From the NCBI RefSeq assembly GCF_009795715.1, contig NZ_WTCR01000016.1, forward strand, positions 1 to 64,000: a stretch of DNA of 64,000 nt, in the 5' to 3' direction. Made by a program: the position numbers and the translations under genes. The notes beneath the pieces are model-generated. The model searched no databases. It saw only the letters and a list, made by a program, of their open reading frames with translations, and was not told the origin of the DNA. Each line of letters starts with the position of its first letter. Position 1 is the first letter of the stretch. The stretch is from Labilibaculum euxinicum (GTDB lineage: Bacteria; Bacteroidota; Bacteroidia; Bacteroidales; Marinifilaceae). Shown one piece after another: positions 10,024 to 58,702 of this stretch.

Positions 10024-11419
10024 CTCTTCCGGGTTTTAAATCGTAAGCATCTTCCAAGCTTAAAATGGCATTCACAATAGTTGCAGCCAATGTTGAACCA
10101 CCTTTTCGTCCTTCAATAATAACAGCGGGTAAATCTGTAAAACTCTTCACTCTGTGTTTTGATTCTTTTACATTTACAAATCCAACCGGAGCAGCTATGA
10201 TCCCGGCTGGCTGAATGCTTTTACTTCTCATTAAATCAGTTAATTCAATCAATGCTGTTGGCGCATTTCCAAACACATACAATGCATCCGGATGCTCCTC
10301 TACTGCCAAACGAATTCCCGCCTGAGTGCGGGTGATACCATGTTTTACGGACAATTCCATGGTGCGGGAATCGTGCAAATAACATTTGATCTCAACGCCC
10401 ATTCTATCGCAGGCTTTTTTGCGAATTCCCGACTGAACCATAGTAACATCAGTAATGATTACACCTCCTTTTTGGAGGTATTCATTCAATTTTGGAGCTG
10501 CATTATTCTGTACTTTCAAAATCTCAGCCAATTCAAAGTCTGCCGAAGTATGAATGCAATGCAAAAGAATCCATTTCGTTTCCAAGGGTAAATCCATTTC
10601 TTTCAATTCTGCAGCAATTGTTCGAAAGCTTTCCTGCATAATCAAAGGACCCGGTCTTCCCTCCTGTTCTTCTTTACTGTAGTATCCACGTGGTGTAATA
10701 AACCGATCACCTGAAATATAGCTTTGTGAATTCCCAACAATCACCAGCGAAAACATGTCTACCATTTCAGGATCAAAATCGCGTAGGTTTGTCAAAGTAA
10801 TTTGTTCCTCGGCACGAGCCACCTGGCGCACAATGGCAACTGGTGTTGTTTCTTCTCGTTCCTCCAAAAACAGTTCCCGTAAGCGATACAATTGCCAATA
10901 TCTTTTATTGCTTTTCGGATTGTAAATTGCAGTTACGAAATCGCCCATCGCAGCTGCCTTTATTCTCTTCTCGATCAAAGCATAACTGGTGAGTAAATCC
11001 GACAAGGAAAGAATGACTAAATCGTGACTTAACGGTGCACCCAATTTTGCAGCCGCAGCCTGAAAAGCAGAAATCCCGGGTATAACTTTTAGCTCTACTT
11101 TCGATTGTGTTTTCTCAGCCATCTCAAAAACAAGCGATGCCATTCCGTAAATGCCGGCATCGCCAGAGCTGATCACAACAACATCTTTCCCTGTTTCAGC
11201 CAATTCAAATGCCTTTTCGGCGCGCTGCACTTCCTGACGCATTCCCGTATCCATGCATTCTGTTCCTTTTTTCAGGAATGATTCTATGAACTGAAAATAA
11301 TATTTGTATCCGATCACCACATCGGCTTCTCTTATTGCATCTATTGCCGGATTTAAAAACAGATCCGGACTTCCTGGTCCAAGGCCTGCAACGGTTATTT
11401 TTCCTAATCTATTTGGCAT
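10016..11419 (-). CDS. cbiH-cbiC: Fused precorrin-3B C17-methyltransferase (CbiH/CobJ) and precorrin-8X methylmutase (CbiC/CobH)
   Basis: A 467-residue fusion. Residues 1 to about 245 are the methylase CbiH/CobJ, with ITVAGLGPGSPDL, VVISSGDAGIYGMA and VIPGISAFQAAAAKLGAPL, which drives ring contraction and C17 methylation. From about residue 260 the methylmutase begins: LHCIHTSADFELAE carries the family's catalytic histidine, followed by TDVTMVQSGI, GNAPTAL, PAGIIAAPVGFVNVKESK and RKGGSTLAA. It moves a methyl group from C11 to C12. Only 6 bp separate it from the cbiL stop. Confidence 0.94.
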   Translation of the reverse strand: MPNRLGKITVAGLGPGSPDLFLNPAIDAIREADVVIGYKYYFQFIESFLKKGTECMDTGMRQEVQRAEKAFELAETGKDVVVISSGDAGIYGMASLVFEMAEKTQSKVELKVIPGISAFQAAAAKLGAPLSHDLVILSLSDLLTSYALIEKRIKAAAMGDFVTAIYNPKSNKRYWQLYRLRELFLEEREETTPVAIVRQVARAEEQITLTNLRDFDPEMVDMFSLVIVGNSQSYISGDRFITPRGYYSKEEQEGRPGPLIMQESFRTIAAELKEMDLPLETKWILLHCIHTSADFELAEILKVQNNAAPKLNEYLQKGGVIITDVTMVQSGIRKKACDRMGVEIKCYLHDSRTMELSVKHGITRTQAGIRLAVEEHPDALYVFGNAPTALIELTDLMRSKSIQPAGIIAAPVGFVNVKESKHRVKSFTDLPAVIIEGRKGGSTLAATIVNAILSLEDAYDLKPGRDV

Positions 11420-54300: not shown

Positions 54301-55089
54301 ATGGCAATAATAAGTTTAACTACCGATTGGCAGCACCGCGATTACTATCTGGGGGCACTTAAAGGGCGCCTCCTATCGATCTGTCCTGGAGCACAATTGG
54401 TAGATTTAAGTCACAATGTTGGCAACTACAATATATCTCAAACATCTTTTATTATAAAAAATGCCTTTGTCCATTTTCCAAAAGGAAGCATTCATATTAT
54501 TGGTGTTAAATCAGAAGAAACACCGGAACATCCGCACATCGTTGTAAAGTATCAGGATCATTATTTTATTGGTGCCGACAATGGTATTTTCAGTTTGATA
54601 ATGAAAGGCGATCCTGAAGAAATTGTACGCATTGAAAATATTGAAAAGGAAGATCACTTTCATACTTTTCCGGAACTGAATGTATTCGCCAAAGCGGCTT
54701 CTCACATTATTAAATACAACAATCTCACAGAACTGGGATCTACCCAAAAAGAATTGTACCGATTGGTTCCCATCCGCGCATTAATTCAGAAAGGAACAAT
54801 TACCGGACAGATTATTTATATTGATTCGTATGGGAATGTAACCACAAATATTTCAAAAGAATTGTTTGAATCGGTGCGTCAGGAAAGAGAATTCGAAATT
54901 TTGGTGCAAAGCAATCATTACCGGATTTCCAAAATCAATCAGAACTATCACGAAACTTCCGAAGGTGATTTTCTGGCGCTCTTCAACTCATCAGGCTTAC
55001 TGGAAATAGCGATAAACAAAGGCAATTTAGCCGAGTTGCTGCAACTGGATATTAACTCCGATATTAGAATCAAACTTCATGATTATTAG
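54301..55089 (+). CDS. SAM hydroxide adenosyltransferase-like protein (DUF62 family)
   Basis: A 262-residue protein of the family that hydrolyses SAM to adenosine and methionine and is related to fluorinases. N-terminal LTTDWQHRDYYLGALKGRL corresponds to the usual TDFG..D.YVG..KG, and DNGIFSL matches the PDNG motif; the C-terminal half has VTTNIS and the SGLLEIAINKGNLAELL end. The conserved aspartates are present. Overlaps the next gene by 11 bp. Confidence 0.88.
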   Translation: MAIISLTTDWQHRDYYLGALKGRLLSICPGAQLVDLSHNVGNYNISQTSFIIKNAFVHFPKGSIHIIGVKSEETPEHPHIVVKYQDHYFIGADNGIFSLIMKGDPEEIVRIENIEKEDHFHTFPELNVFAKAASHIIKYNNLTELGSTQKELYRLVPIRALIQKGTITGQIIYIDSYGNVTTNISKELFESVRQEREFEILVQSNHYRISKINQNYHETSEGDFLALFNSSGLLEIAINKGNLAELLQLDINSDIRIKLHDY

Positions 55090-55360
55090 ATTTGTAAAGC
55101 TGGAAATACTTCCACAAAACATTGATGATTTTAAAAATCTTACATCGGGTGAAAAAGATGAAATTATAGCCTTTCCAGGTTGTTCTCATCTTGAAATTTT
55201 ACAGGATGTATCAAATCCATCGGTATTTTTCACGGTAAGTCACTGGTGTTCGGAGGACGATTTAAACCATTACCGAAACTCTGATTTTTTTCAGGGCAAC
55301 TGGAAAAAGGTAAAAAAATGGTTCGCTGCCAAACCTGAGGCATGGAGCTTATCTAAATAA
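55079..55360 (+). CDS. Antibiotic-biosynthesis-monooxygenase (ABM) domain protein
   Basis: A 93-residue dimeric ferredoxin-like fold protein: VKLEILPQNIDDFKNL, FPGCSHLEILQDVSNPSVFFTVSHWCSEDDLNHYRNSDFF. The domain occurs in small monooxygenases and in stress proteins; function here unknown. It overlaps the SAM hydrolase-like gene by 11 bp, so they are coupled. Its last 33 codons and some 60 bp beyond are repeated, in damaged form, at 58321-58490. Confidence 0.82.
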   Translation: MIIRFVKLEILPQNIDDFKNLTSGEKDEIIAFPGCSHLEILQDVSNPSVFFTVSHWCSEDDLNHYRNSDFFQGNWKKVKKWFAAKPEAWSLSK

Positions 55361-56055
55361 TTGGGACGTCTCCCTTTACTCTTACACATACATCGGGTCA
55401 GGCTTTCCACAACCACTCCCCGACTACCTAACTATCCTTAATTTGCTGCGGGTAACCTCTTCAATCCTTTACACACGTTTTCAATTCTTGAAATTAGCTG
55501 TCATCATCTCTTTGGGCCTTCAAAAAGCGAACCTTTCCTTATAGATTATCTTCAGCCTAAATGGGCTTGAATGCACCTTTAAACTTCAACTACAATCCAA
55601 TCAAATTAAAAACTACATAATAGATTAAACAAATTAAAATATTCACATAATACAAAAATTAAACATTCACTAACCCCATATAACAAAGATAATTTGCCAA
55701 CAAATAAATTATTTTAAACCACCAATAATATATTTTAATAGATCATTTACTTACATTAAAGAAACAATATGATTAAATTTAAATATCCCATAATTATTTA
55801 TTTAAAAAATATTTCAATAAATTAGAAGATAAATCTCAAATTATACTAACAAACAAAAGTATTGCATTATGTTTTTTAATATTACTTCTCATTAAGCGTA
55901 AAAAAAATACAGTTTCTTTTACGCTTAATGTAGTGTAAATCTGCAACTCGAAAATGATAAAAACATGAAATAATTTAGGATGAATACACAACTCTCCAAA
56001 AGCAAAATTATATAATCTGTAACCCAATTAAATTGAATCATTATTCTTAATTCAA
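55361..56055. other. AT-rich intergenic region upstream of the peptide cassette
   Basis: Nearly 700 bp. The first 65 bp continue the tail that is duplicated at 58400-58490. The rest is very AT-rich, without a believable frame. A perfect 14-bp inverted repeat is at 55890-55930. Confidence 0.6.
55890..55930. repeat. Perfect 14-bp inverted repeat
   Basis: CATTAAGCGTAAAA / TTTTACGCTTAATG with a 13-nt loop, about 125 bp before the C39-VKOR-Trx gene. There is no T-run directly after it on either strand, so it is more like an operator or an RNA leader stem than a terminator. Confidence 0.65.
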
Positions 56056-57654
56056 ATGGACGAAAACTTATTTTTCCTATTAAAAGAACTACTCACAAAA
56101 AATAGCATAAAAGTTAATAATGAAGAATTAAAGCTTCAATTATTTGGTCACCCTTCGTATCCAAGTTTACATTCTTTGACCGGAGTTTTGGATCATTTTA
56201 ACATCCCAAATCTTGCAATAGAAATTCCTAAAACAGAAGAAAACATTGCTCTTTTGCCCGATTACTTCATAGCTCATATCGAAAACAACGGAAGTGATAA
56301 TTTTGCATTAATCAGCAAGAAAGCGGATGCTATTCAAATTACACGTGAGGGAAAAAAATCGGAGCTTGTACCCATTGACAGCTTTATTGATTTATGGACC
56401 GGAATTGTCTTAGTGATCGAAACAGATGAAAATATAAAAACAGATATCACTTCTATTTTCTCAAAAGTATTACTTGTAAGTATTCCAGTCGTACTAATTA
56501 TTTGCTTTTTATTCTTAAGTCAAAACCCATATGAATCATTTCATTTTGCTTTTTCCATGATTGGACTAATGATATGTATCTTTATTCTTCAACATGAAAT
56601 AGGAACTTCTTCTCAGGTTTTAAATAAAATTTGTACTGGTGTTAGTGATAAAGTAAGTTGCGATGATGTTATGCAATCGAAAGGATCCAATCTTTTTGGC
56701 TTTGTTAAATTAAGTGATCTTGGTATTATATATTTTCTAACCTCAGTATTATCTTCCTTGCTTTTTGTGATGAGTAAGAACAATTTCACTCCACTATTTG
56801 TAATAAGCCTTACAGCGCTGCCATTTACAATCTATTCCATCTACTATCAGTTCCAAATTGTAAAAAAATGGTGTCTCCTTTGCCTTGGTGTTATTTTGGT
56901 TTTATGGATACAATCGGCTTTGGCAACTGCAAATATCAATTCAATCTCTGAGATAATATCAGAACCAAATTCTTACTTACTCTTTGCATTTGCGGCATAC
57001 CTTACCACAGCTCTTTGGCTATTCATTGCTCCCAAAATAAGACTAAAACCAGAATATTTTAAATTAAAAGTACAATTCAATAAATTCAAAAGAAACTTCG
57101 AAATATTCAACAATCTGCTTTCCAGATCGCAAGCAATAAACACCACAATTACAAACAGCAATGAAATAGTATTTGGCACTAAAAATTCTGAATTGGAAAT
57201 CGTTATAATCACAAACCCCTTATGTGGCTTTTGCAAAAATGCTCACAAACTAATTCACATAGTACTAGATCAAGAAACAGAAGTAAAAATCATTGTTCGT
57301 TTCAATGTATCTCAAAATACCAAAGCCATTGATAATAAAATTGCATCAAAACTAGTTGAGATCTACCATATAAACGGGGAAAAGATATGTCTAACAGCAA
57401 TGAATGAAGCCTATTCCAGCAGAGATTCTGCCACTTGGCTAAATAAATGGGGAGAATCAGAAAACGAATACTATTCTCAAATTTTAATGGAAGAAAAGAA
57501 ATGGTGTACAAACAACAATATTCCCTTTACACCTGAAATTCTTCTTAATGGCAAATCCTATCCAAAAGAGTATGATTTTGAAGAATTGCAATATTTTCTT
57601 GAAGATCTTAACGAGTTCGAAGTTTCGACGCAAACAGAACTCATAACAGACTAA
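56056..57654 (+). CDS. C39-like / VKOR / thioredoxin-like three-domain membrane protein
   Basis: A 532-residue protein probably forming disulfides in exported peptides. Residues 1-125 resemble a C39 peptidase-like domain (GHPSYPSLHSLTGVLDHFNI), but the catalytic Cys and His are not seen, so it may only bind leaders. Residues 135-325 form a VKOR domain with Cys193 and Cys202 in the loop (KICTGVSDKVSCDDV), and the redox pair C-L-L-C (273-276). Residues about 370-520 are thioredoxin/DsbA-like with CGFC (390-393). VKOR and thioredoxin modules normally work in disulfide formation. Two GG-leader peptides with four conserved cysteines follow at 74 bp. No ABC transporter is present in the window. Confidence 0.85.
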   Translation: MDENLFFLLKELLTKNSIKVNNEELKLQLFGHPSYPSLHSLTGVLDHFNIPNLAIEIPKTEENIALLPDYFIAHIENNGSDNFALISKKADAIQITREGKKSELVPIDSFIDLWTGIVLVIETDENIKTDITSIFSKVLLVSIPVVLIICFLFLSQNPYESFHFAFSMIGLMICIFILQHEIGTSSQVLNKICTGVSDKVSCDDVMQSKGSNLFGFVKLSDLGIIYFLTSVLSSLLFVMSKNNFTPLFVISLTALPFTIYSIYYQFQIVKKWCLLCLGVILVLWIQSALATANINSISEIISEPNSYLLFAFAAYLTTALWLFIAPKIRLKPEYFKLKVQFNKFKRNFEIFNNLLSRSQAINTTITNSNEIVFGTKNSELEIVIITNPLCGFCKNAHKLIHIVLDQETEVKIIVRFNVSQNTKAIDNKIASKLVEIYHINGEKICLTAMNEAYSSRDSATWLNKWGESENEYYSQILMEEKKWCTNNNIPFTPEILLNGKSYPKEYDFEELQYFLEDLNEFEVSTQTELITD

Positions 57655-57665
57655 AAATAATTATA

Positions 57666-57715
57666 AAACTGAAGTCTTGACGGTTTTAAAATGTTCAAGA
57701 TATACACACATTTTA
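57666..57715 (+). repeat. 50-bp repeat before peptide gene 1
   Basis: CTTGACGGTTTTAAAATGTT and CAAGATATACACACATTTT, matching 58101-58150 with about four changes. Within it TCTTGA and TCAAGA form an inverted repeat 14 bp apart, so it may be a promoter or operator of the peptide genes. Confidence 0.75.
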
Positions 57716-57727
57716 TTTTTTTATACC

Positions 57728-57883
57728 ATGAAAGATTTACAAAAATTAAACGGCGCTAAAATTCTTAGCAAAAAAGAACAACAAACTGTTAAAGGTGGAT
57801 ACATCAAAGAATGTAAAACATACAAAGACTGTTGGGAAGGTTTCATCTGCAGTGGAGGAATTTGTATCTCTGGGGAAATATGA
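57728..57883 (+). CDS. GG-leader Cys-rich peptide 1
   Basis: A 51-residue precursor. The leader MKDLQKLNGAKILSKKEQQ ends in VKGG (21-24), the double-glycine type common for Bacteroidota natural-product precursors. The core (27 residues) has four cysteines spaced C-x5-C-x5-C-x4-C. The ATG at 57728 is preferred to the TTG at 57677 because the leader begins there. Likely exported and cleaved after GG by a C39 protease-transporter encoded elsewhere, with two disulfides. Activity unknown. Confidence 0.8.
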   Translation: MKDLQKLNGAKILSKKEQQTVKGGYIKECKTYKDCWEGFICSGGICISGEI

Positions 57884-57904
57884 TCATTCATTAGTATTTA
57901 GATT

Positions 57905-58063
57905 ATGAACAGATTAAAAGAATTACTGGGAGCTAAAACTCTTAACAAAATTGAACAACAAGCTGTTAAAGGTGGACGCTCAAAATGCATTGATGATTTA
58001 AGTTGCCCTGATGGATATGGATGTGATCCTTTTGGAGTTTGCAGACTTATTCCGGCAATCTAA
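57905..58063 (+). CDS. GG-leader Cys-rich peptide 2
   Basis: A 52-residue paralogue of peptide 1, 21 bp after it. Leader MNRLKELLGAKTLNKIEQQA then VKGG; core 28 residues with C-x5-C-x5-C-x5-C. The leaders are about half identical while the cores differ except for the cysteines and glycine positions, as expected for a diversifying peptide family. Too short for many gene finders. Confidence 0.8.
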   Translation: MNRLKELLGAKTLNKIEQQAVKGGRSKCIDDLSCPDGYGCDPFGVCRLIPAI

Positions 58064-58100
58064 TTAAAACTTTCTCTTCTTAAATTGAAAATTTTGAATA

Positions 58101-58150
58101 AAACCGAAATCTTGACGGTTTTAAAATGTTCAAGATTTACACACATTTCA
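58101..58150 (+). repeat. 50-bp repeat before broken peptide gene 3
   Basis: Near copy of 57666-57715 (CTTGACGGTTTTAAAATGTT then CAAGATTTACACACATTTC). It runs straight into the peptide 3 core. Confidence 0.75.
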
Positions 58151-58234
58151 TGAAATTTGTGGCTTTGATAGGGACTGCGCAAGTGATGAATATTGTACTG
58201 ATGGTGTTTGCGTCCCTCCTCGCTGGAAACCATA
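58149..58234 (+). pseudogene. Broken third peptide gene (core only, leader lost)
   Basis: The frame HEICGFDRDCASDEYC-TDGVC-VPPRWKP and stop keeps the C-x5-C-x5-C-x4-C pattern of the two preceding genes. There is no GG leader or start codon in frame; the upstream repeat joins directly to the core, as if a deletion removed leader and spacer. It is probably silent. Confidence 0.7.
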
Positions 58235-58318
58235 AATTAGATTAAAATATCTAGTGCTATTTTAGCTCTCTCTCTTGAGATTGTAATTGACAATCTCAAG
58301 AGAAAATTATCCGTGTTA

Positions 58319-58490
58319 AATAAACCAATCACCGAAACTCATTTTTTTTTCAGGGCAACTGGAAAAAGGTAAAAAAATGGTTTACCGCCAAGCCCGAGGC
58401 ATGGAGCTTATACAATTAAATTAATGTGACGTATCCCTCCTTATCCTTTCCCGCATTCCATCTCCCTGTCGGGTCAGGCTTTTCGCATCC
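58319..58490 (+). pseudogene. Decayed second copy of the ABM gene 3' end and downstream DNA
   Basis: TTTCAGGGCAACTGGAAAAA and the following AGGTAAAAAAATGGTTTACC match the end of the ABM gene (55262-55360), giving QGNWKKVKKWFTAKPEAWSL before a stop. Upstream a one-base insertion breaks the frame. Similarity runs past the stop (GTATCCCT..., TCGGGTCAGGCTTT) into non-coding DNA. The segment between the two copies holds the peptide cassette. Confidence 0.8.
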
Positions 58491-58571: not shown

Positions 58572-58702
58572 AGTTAACCACAGAGAGCACAGAGAGCACA
58601 GAGAGCACAGAGAGCACAGAGAAAAAAAAATAAATTCTTTGCGCTTTTTGTAAATTAACATTGTGTGCTTCGTGATATCCCTTTGTGTACTTTGTGGTTA
58701 AT
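58572..58702. repeat. Tandem 9-bp repeats in a TTAACCACAGAG element
   Basis: From 58579 the unit CACAGAGAG is repeated about four and a half times. The element starts GAGTTAACCACAGAG and ends CTTTGTGGTTAATTT, so its two ends are inverted copies (TTAACCACA / TGTGGTTAA). Short frames over the tract on both strands are artefacts. Confidence 0.75.

Follow-up and report, generated by a model that had tools for sequence, protein, structure and literature searches.

A gene for a membrane-embedded redox protein followed directly by genes for small, cysteine-rich peptides with double-glycine (GG) leaders raises the question of where, and under what guidance, disulfide bonds might be placed in such peptides. 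Here we address this question for a 64,000-nucleotide stretch of Labilibaculum euxinicum DNA (contig NZ_WTCR01000016.1, positions 1 to 64,000; hereafter the window), in which a single oxidase, P0001, joins a C39-like, a vitamin K epoxide reductase (VKOR) and a DsbA-like thioredoxin-fold domain. We conclude that the locus probably encodes a system in which the leader guides the installation of disulfides in a family of small secreted peptides. The original prediction, in which a dead protease domain holds the leader while the redox parts form disulfides in the core, proved right in kind: the association with cysteine-rich GG peptides, the inactive C39-like domain, the redox parts and the mostly even cysteine numbers all agree with it. 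It was incomplete with respect to orientation and RNA. The strongest new claims are the predicted cytoplasmic orientation of the oxidase, the mostly even numbers of cysteines in the peptide cores, and an RNA pseudoknot.

Profiles and the predicted structure agree on the three domains of P0001, and profiles, fold and reading frames together confirm the initial observation of a one-chain protein followed by two GG-leader peptides. For comparison, 92 full-length relatives, 89 of them unique, were gathered from 97 sources (the window and loci L020 to L115); 80 of 164 relatives from a survey were kept, all found by a single pattern around the VKOR Cys-x2-Cys motif, and 13 others were used as a check. 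Each of the 89 aligned homologues retains the six redox cysteines together with the cis-proline, including every one of the 13 that were not selected by a sequence pattern. The VKOR with both cysteine pairs and the CGFC domain recognised earlier are complete in P0001, which has the VKOR fold as well as the two pairs. The structural model contains six long helices (residues 134-154, 158-182, 219-240, 245-269 with a short break, 274-293 and 304-345). The VKOR structure matches listed start at residue 157 or 160, so that the first of these helices, transmembrane helix 0 (TM0), has no counterpart in them; the relative placement of the domains in the model is uncertain because of its predicted template-modelling score (pTM) of 0.56. 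A further cysteine of the DsbA-like domain, residue 484, is nearly invariant beside the invariant Trp483 (62 sequences) and might have an additional redox or structural role. Two variant arrangements were also seen: locus L028 has a second, solitary DsbA-like part (10780-11388) after a complete oxidase and the first peptide, and in genome G594 a 405-aa family-type VKOR and DsbA-like protein with no C39-like match (L221, 4479-5696) lies near a peptidase-containing ABC transporter (PCAT).

In fold comparison, residues 1-123 match the C39 domains of PCAT1, LahT, ComA and HlyB. The N-terminal part had been called C39-like without catalytic residues, and profile and fold bear this out: P0001 has the fold of an active C39 peptidase and none of its catalytic Cys, His and Asp. 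Among the 89 homologues the Cys is kept in one, the His in seven, the Asp in eight and all three in none; the transporter C39 domains in the alignment, by comparison, keep Cys in 45 of 45, His in 45 of 45 and Asp in 44 of 45. The sole homologue with the cysteine, a distant relative without His and Asp (L035, 8386-10044), may be an intermediate in the loss of protease activity. A kept fold combined with lost catalysis is what is expected of a binding module, and we infer that the domain may hold the leader. In the C39 domain of LahT, leader positions -4, -7 and -12 are described, in the available part of the report, as lying in a hydrophobic groove about 20 Å from the active site (Bobeica et al. 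2019, PubMed Central (PMC) record PMC6363468). Leaders at the oxidase loci have Leu at -12 in 300 of 312 and Ile or Val at -4 in 300 of 312, although the peptides were selected with a looser form of this motif; Gln at -7 is present in 278 of 312 (8 of 50 in control peptides). The window peptides carry the PCAT-type leader L(-12)..E(-8)..I/V(-4)xGG, and export is predicted for them. In L203 and L204 the C39-like and VKOR parts lie in different frames, which were first considered as natural separate proteins; the frames overlap, which suggests frameshifts, and they were therefore left out as evidence on location.

By the positive-inside rule, positively charged loops lie on the cytoplasmic side of the membrane. 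A hydrophobic stretch at the position of TM0 occurs in 89 of 89 homologues, compared with 0 of 14 ordinary VKOR-thioredoxin fusions and 1 of 7 short VKORs (L186), these controls being hand-picked from a list and several of them coming from one genus. We counted Lys and Arg on the active-site side (the TM3-TM4 loop plus the 25 residues after TM5) and on the other side (the TM2-TM3 and TM4-TM5 loops). The active-site side carries more in 89 of 89 homologues (means 8.47 versus 0.70), whereas the sign is opposite in all 14 ordinary fusions of the phylum (means 1.07 versus 7.36); short VKORs have no TM5, so that this test was run on the 14 fusions only. Because the TM3-TM4 loop lies within the search pattern that found 76 of the 89, the count was repeated without it, and the excess was again seen in 89 of 89 homologues, including 13 of 13 not found by the pattern, and in 0 of 14 controls. 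Excluded from the controls were repeats (L184, L213, L218, L220), proteins that are partial or have no match to the VKOR profile (L189, L190) and family-type proteins without C39 (L221, L222); L191 and L193 have no match in the VKOR control listing. Compared with an ordinary periplasm-facing fusion, P0001 has an extra helix, and its active site is not predicted by the charge rule to lie on the outer side.

Loop charges and helix count thus predict that the C39-like, VKOR and DsbA-like sites all face the cytoplasm. Disulfides would then be made before export, with the leader attached, because TM0 would reverse the VKOR core and place the three sites on that side. This resolves a difficulty of the original prediction: PCAT C39 domains remove the leader on the cytoplasmic side, which is where any oxidase that holds a leader must act. 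TM0 and the charge pattern, both missed by the original prediction, make such an oxidase topologically possible. We regard it as unlikely that P0001 instead keeps the ordinary VKOR orientation and forms disulfides in the periplasm after export, its C39-like part being periplasmic or regulatory without leader contact, or binding an exported leader that is still uncut. Characterised bacterial VKOR-thioredoxin fusions do work on the outer side, and several of the matched DsbA-like structures are periplasmic proteins. A periplasmic oxidase would nevertheless have charges opposite to those of the ordinary fusions in every homologue, TM0 would add one crossing, and the 125-aa N-terminal domain would need translocation although 88 of 89 homologues are without a signal-peptide-like hydrophobic start (1 of 89 has one, at the threshold used); moreover, given cytoplasmic cleavage by PCATs, little leader should remain outside.

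The peptides themselves suggest what a cytoplasm-facing oxidase might act on. GG peptides within 8 kb of the oxidases number 332 on the same strand and 8 on the opposite one; they were called by a regular expression, and a few of the calls are false (for example in L036 at -3009). The survey of this domain order beside GG peptides, proposed with the original prediction, finds at least one GG peptide with at least two cysteines at 84 of 89 oxidase loci; at 81 loci a cysteine-rich GG peptide lies downstream of the oxidase, the first at a median of 117 nt. At least four cysteines are present in 302 of the 323 unique cores around the 89 oxidases. Unique cores with at least two cysteines have an even number in 281 cases and an odd number in 28 (p 2.7e-51 versus a truncated Poisson, P(even) 0.513), thinning to below 50 percent identity leaves 173 even versus 12 odd, and the signal lies in counts of 4, 6 and 8 (276 cores) versus 5 and 7 (26 cores). 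Control GG peptides were taken from the transporter strand of 30 PCAT loci without oxidase, in genomes without a reported full-length match in two surveys, one of which scored three candidates per genome; of these 50 unique peptides, 4 have at least four cysteines, and among those with at least two the counts are even in 9 and odd in 4. The C-x5-C-x5-C-x4/5-C pattern noted at the outset holds in the window, but its spacing is not conserved in homologues, in which cysteine-richness and an even number, mostly 4, 6 or 8, are kept instead. Mean identity within a locus is 0.71 for leaders and 0.33 for cores, the leader being the more similar part in 56 of 58 loci. Cores with seven cysteines, the main exception to even counts, might form a dimer or retain a free thiol. 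Mature window peptides measure 27-28 aa, and the families PF14406 and TIGR04149 were rejected for them, with scores below the cut-offs. In Tenacibaculum (L046, L050-L052, L055, L056, L063), arrays of 11-17 called peptides combine a nearly single leader with very different cores and one oxidase.

It is highly improbable, in our estimate, that the cysteines are thioether-linked, metal-binding or otherwise modified and that the redox protein serves general folding, its place beside the peptides being due to chance or common descent. Other ribosomally synthesized and post-translationally modified peptides (RiPPs) do occur among the GG peptides of Bacteroidota, and the control locus L249 has cysteine-rich GG peptides without an oxidase. 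Both the peptide association and the cysteine parity are nonetheless very strong. In addition, 24 protein families recur in at least five loci, and no known RiPP-modifying enzyme is among the 17 of which one representative each was scanned against Pfam; these 17 comprise PCAT, HlyD, regulators and kinases, housekeeping genes and three families without a Pfam match. Two families without a Pfam match (types L050, 9198-9881, and L060, 9150-9788) are each found a short distance upstream of the oxidase at 12 loci, and a LytTR response regulator occurs at 19 loci, upstream on the same strand in 16.

The transporter had been expected to be encoded elsewhere, and in L. euxinicum it is: a PCAT and an HlyD protein lie side by side on another contig, labelled C39 (L020, 9014-12662). 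Yet a PCAT-cluster protein lies within 8 kb at 50 of 89 loci and an HlyD-cluster protein at 41 of 89, nearly always downstream on the same strand, each cluster being named from one member. In a tree of the two transporters of this genome, the copy on contig C11 pairs with L252, a locus without oxidase, and the copy on contig C39 groups with the oxidase-linked L023 and L044 (Shimodaira-Hasegawa-like approximate likelihood-ratio test, SH-aLRT, 94; fork drawn open); in G626 an 88 percent identical PCAT lies 128 bp behind a broken oxidase relative. A profile search of the own genome found no DsbB and one VKOR match, P0001. The proximity of PCATs, together with the HlyB C39-like domain among the fold matches, would also suit a chaperone or transporter adaptor, in which an HlyB-like C39 part passes precursors on to the PCAT and the main task of the redox parts is isomerisation or reduction, so as to keep cores unfolded or reshuffle wrong bonds before export. 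We consider this decidedly unlikely: VKOR, which donates electrons to quinone, is an oxidising enzyme, and the mostly even cysteine counts point to closed bonds in the product.

Many of the cassettes are further marked by an RNA element that the original prediction overlooked. Two interlocking helices of 5 bp (first counted as 4 bp) and 7 bp, with a first loop of 2 nt and a third loop rich in A, span about 35 nt upstream of the peptide; the H-type pseudoknot was built on 20, then 34, then 118 sequences (101 of them distinct). Helix 1, which is in no search model, has standard pairs in 96.9 percent of cells and changes on both sides in four of five pairs. Helix 2, which the model contains, has 88.8 percent standard pairs, and its outermost pair fails in 65 of 100 cells. 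For the complete element, covariation is 0.418 versus 0.157 in shuffles (0 of 500 reaching it), which supports the pseudoknot structure. A DNA operator was also considered, but a folded RNA is preferred: the two interlocking helices show covariation, and the models that aligned the sequences did not include helix 1. A scan of positions 57640-58260 gave no Rfam 15 match at gathering score, and weak matches (E 0.24 to 3.3, far below gathering scores) were taken as chance.

The element follows the oxidase in its distribution at several scales. In the own genome, a search at E up to 1 yields two matches, each of them at this locus. A scan of 56 genomes of the bacterial family, with stricter filters, gave 22 matches (E <=1.1e-5), all in the seven genomes with a close oxidase (>570 bits) and 0 in the other 49; four weak matches (E 0.008 to 0.046) fell in G600, G613 (two) and elsewhere in G628. 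Model R3 gave 199 matches in 84 oxidase loci, which include those used to build it, and 0 in 33 loci without oxidase. Among its best 150 matches, 149 share the strand of the oxidase, and 142 are followed by a small frame with a GG-type site, in 120 cases at 21-25 nt. An earlier model, R2, placed the element at 93 of 305 cysteine-rich peptides, so many cassettes are without a detected element. Across 36 whole genomes of the class, 6 of the 20 that have the oxidase gave matches, as did, weakly, 1 of the 16 that lack it; 30 of the 38 matches were read, and 27 of these precede a GG peptide. Two others precede lipoprotein-like genes (G507, contig C5, 50613; G285, contig C5, 213409) and may represent another use, and the remaining one is a weak match. 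In G507, 17 matches lie outside the contig that carries the known oxidase, 16 of them before a GG peptide, and a 19.5-kb stretch (L291) has ten elements and neither oxidase nor PCAT. One oxidase may thus serve scattered cassettes, although a second oxidase may be present in this genome, where 3 of 14 candidates were scored. The element ends shortly before the start codon, which suggests translation control, a role that is a guess. We propose it as a marker for finding such cassettes and as a candidate regulatory RNA.

In the pathway that we infer for leader binding, the direction of electron flow, the disulfides and the functions of peptides and RNA, each peptide gene specifies a 24-aa GG leader and a cysteine-rich core, as read directly from the sequence. 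A cytoplasmic, protease-dead C39-like domain would hold the leader, probably through Leu -12 and Ile/Val -4 as in LahT. The DsbA-like domain would oxidise core cysteines pairwise, as its invariant residues and known VKOR chemistry suggest, and would itself be re-oxidised by VKOR Cys193/202 and Cys273/276, with electrons passing to the membrane quinone. TM0 would turn the VKOR core so that the cross-links, judging from charges and helix count, are made in the cytoplasm before export. A separate PCAT-HlyD machine, whose genes are present, would then cut after GG and export the folded peptide, and the pseudoknot in the mRNA leader of many cassettes, at a guess, probably controls their translation jointly. 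An enzyme indifferent to the core would leave core sequences free to vary, including those encoded at sites other than the oxidase locus. Whether all of this amounts to a distinct RiPP-like route we judge to be evenly balanced: a cytoplasm-facing, quinone-linked disulfide synthase would read GG leaders through a dead C39 domain and, ahead of export, give arbitrary cores two to four disulfides each. It would serve a genome-wide library of fast-diversifying cassettes with one leader type, many sharing the pseudoknot for joint switching, and cytoplasmic disulfides would be confined to leader-held substrates.

Several observations weigh against this pathway. The orientation is based on the charge rule and helix count, and the cytoplasm of usual bacteria is reducing, which would work against oxidation. 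No cysteine-rich GG peptide was found within reach at 5 of 89 loci; cysteine numbers are odd in 28 of 309 cores; and 17 cores have seven cysteines, 11 of them from four Dokdonia loci (L058, L067, L081, L104). Other core residues also lean towards even counts (Asn 131 versus 79, Lys 77 versus 19), because counts of 2 dominate. The RNA element was not found in 14 of the 20 oxidase genomes searched whole. The PCAT on contig C39 is retained by 8 of 9 genomes of the genus whether or not they have the oxidase, and for this reason was dropped as a dedicated partner. Finally, bacteroidetocins, peptide toxins of Bacteroidota, are still active when synthesised chemically with no disulfide-forming step, according to the available part of PMC6671954, so that disulfides may serve stability or export only.

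The oxidase occurs in 11 of 198 genomes of the order, the own genome included (a tally of 113 of 395 includes transporter C39 domains and was not used for prevalence), and no relative of P0001 was found in viral contigs. In the window, the oxidase-peptide system looks like an insertion. The direct repeats at its boundaries align over 118 columns at 84 percent, and the repeat-source gene and a helicase gene are 3.48 kb apart in the window, compared with about 223 bp in G620 and 231 bp in G621, two genomes that yielded no oxidase; this short spacing represents the empty site. In G617 two repeat copies about 10.5 kb apart enclose a larger insert, and a short tandem 9-bp repeat lies behind the insert of the window (58579-58623). 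The closest relatives, L036 and L037 of Labilibaculum (oxidase 96 and 93 percent identical), carry five cysteine-rich GG peptides each, so that the window locus, with its decayed third cassette overlooked earlier, looks like a shortened array.

Table. Features of the oxidase-peptide locus, in window coordinates
Feature	Position	Strand	Basis or remark
C39-like/VKOR/DsbA-like oxidase P0001	56056..57654	+	532 aa; one of 89 unique full-length homologues
C39-like pseudo-protease domain, residues 1-123, proposed leader-binding part	56056..56424	+	Profile, fold
Extra transmembrane helix TM0, residues 134-154	56455..56517	+	Predicted-structure helix; hydrophobic stretch in homologues
VKOR domain, residues 157-298	56524..56949	+	Profile and predicted structure; Cys193/Cys202 and Cys273-x2-Cys276
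DsbA-like thioredoxin-fold domain, residues 358-523	57127..57624	+	Cys390-Gly-Phe-Cys393, Thr492-Pro493; profile, alignment, predicted structure
H-type pseudoknot RNA element 1, 23 nt before peptide 1 start codon	57667..57704	+	Repeat, covariation model
Precursor peptide 1 with 24-aa GG leader and core C-x5-C-x5-C-x4-C	57728..57883	+	Open frame
Precursor peptide 2 with 24-aa GG leader and core C-x5-C-x5-C-x5-C; separate RNA element not found	57905..58063	+	
H-type pseudoknot RNA element 2, before decayed third cassette	58102..58139	+	
Decayed third cassette, core C-x5-C-x5-C-x4-C, no in-frame leader	58158..58235	+	
Direct repeat, left copy, 3' end of gene 55079-55360	55263..55375		Boundary of insert
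Direct repeat, right copy	58321..58438		Boundary of insert
Perfect 14-bp inverted repeat after cassettes	58271..58303		Possible terminator

If the proposal is true, it describes a new way of making disulfide-rich peptides, with a defined enzyme for leader-directed disulfide installation, and a natural inverted VKOR in bacteria. The 323 different cores around 89 oxidases represent hundreds of unstudied cysteine-rich peptides. The system makes testable how Bacteroidota form disulfide peptides and may offer a tool for their cytoplasmic production. In the open-licence PMC literature no paper combined 'vitamin K epoxide reductase' and 'peptidase C39', and the titles and abstract openings of the matches listed described no such system.

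Among known systems, Synechococcus-type VKOR-thioredoxin fusions have two cysteine pairs and a helix leading to a thioredoxin-fold domain. P0001 shares the VKOR fold with the representative structure (PDB 4nv2) and differs in its extra N-terminal helix, its C39-like domain and a DsbA-like last domain; its charge pattern is reversed with respect to the 14 Bacteroidota fusions, which, rather than 4nv2, were the charge comparison. In RiPP systems of the prochlorosin type, one enzyme acts on peptides with a conserved leader and hypervariable cores scattered in the genome; conserved leaders and variable, scattered cores are found here too, but lanthionine formation takes the place of the disulfide formation by a membrane oxidase that we propose. 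The C39 domains of LahT and HlyB have the same fold as that of P0001, in which the triad is lost and the fusion partner is an oxidase rather than an ABC transporter; the cognate leaders here mostly have Gln at -7, where that of LahT has Leu.

Disulfides on the cytoplasmic side have precedents. Inverted VKOR or DsbB has been placed in the cytoplasm (Hatahet and Ruddock 2013, in PMC5471842), where the inverted VKOR of CyDisCo is known to work, and Aeropyrum pernix has VKOR in two compartments (Hibender et al. 2017, cited in PMC12453122). The former is engineered for protein production and the latter archaeal, and neither, as described in these passages, is guided by a leader or linked to peptide export. 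The bacteroidetocins (class IIf; Coyne et al. 2019, PMC6671954) resemble the present system in coming from Bacteroidota and in combining GG leaders, four-cysteine peptides, a thiol oxidoreductase and a PCAT. In the available text of that paper, Bacteroides is said to lack general disulfide machinery, the authors infer disulfides in the peptides, and the thiol oxidoreductase and a membrane protein are needed for full toxin activity, with a PCAT in the region. Bacteroidetocins kill Bacteroidales and target BamA, according to the title and abstract of PMC8546649, and by analogy the peptides described here are probably antibacterial. The excerpts of PMC6671954 describe no C39-like fusion, orientation or RNA element, and give a leader of 15-16 aa and a mature peptide of 42 aa, compared with 24 aa and 27-28 aa here. 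They also describe a four-gene region of five-TM protein, peptide, thiol oxidoreductase and PCAT, with oxidoreductase and five-TM protein as separate genes, whereas the window has one fused oxidase and no adjoining PCAT.

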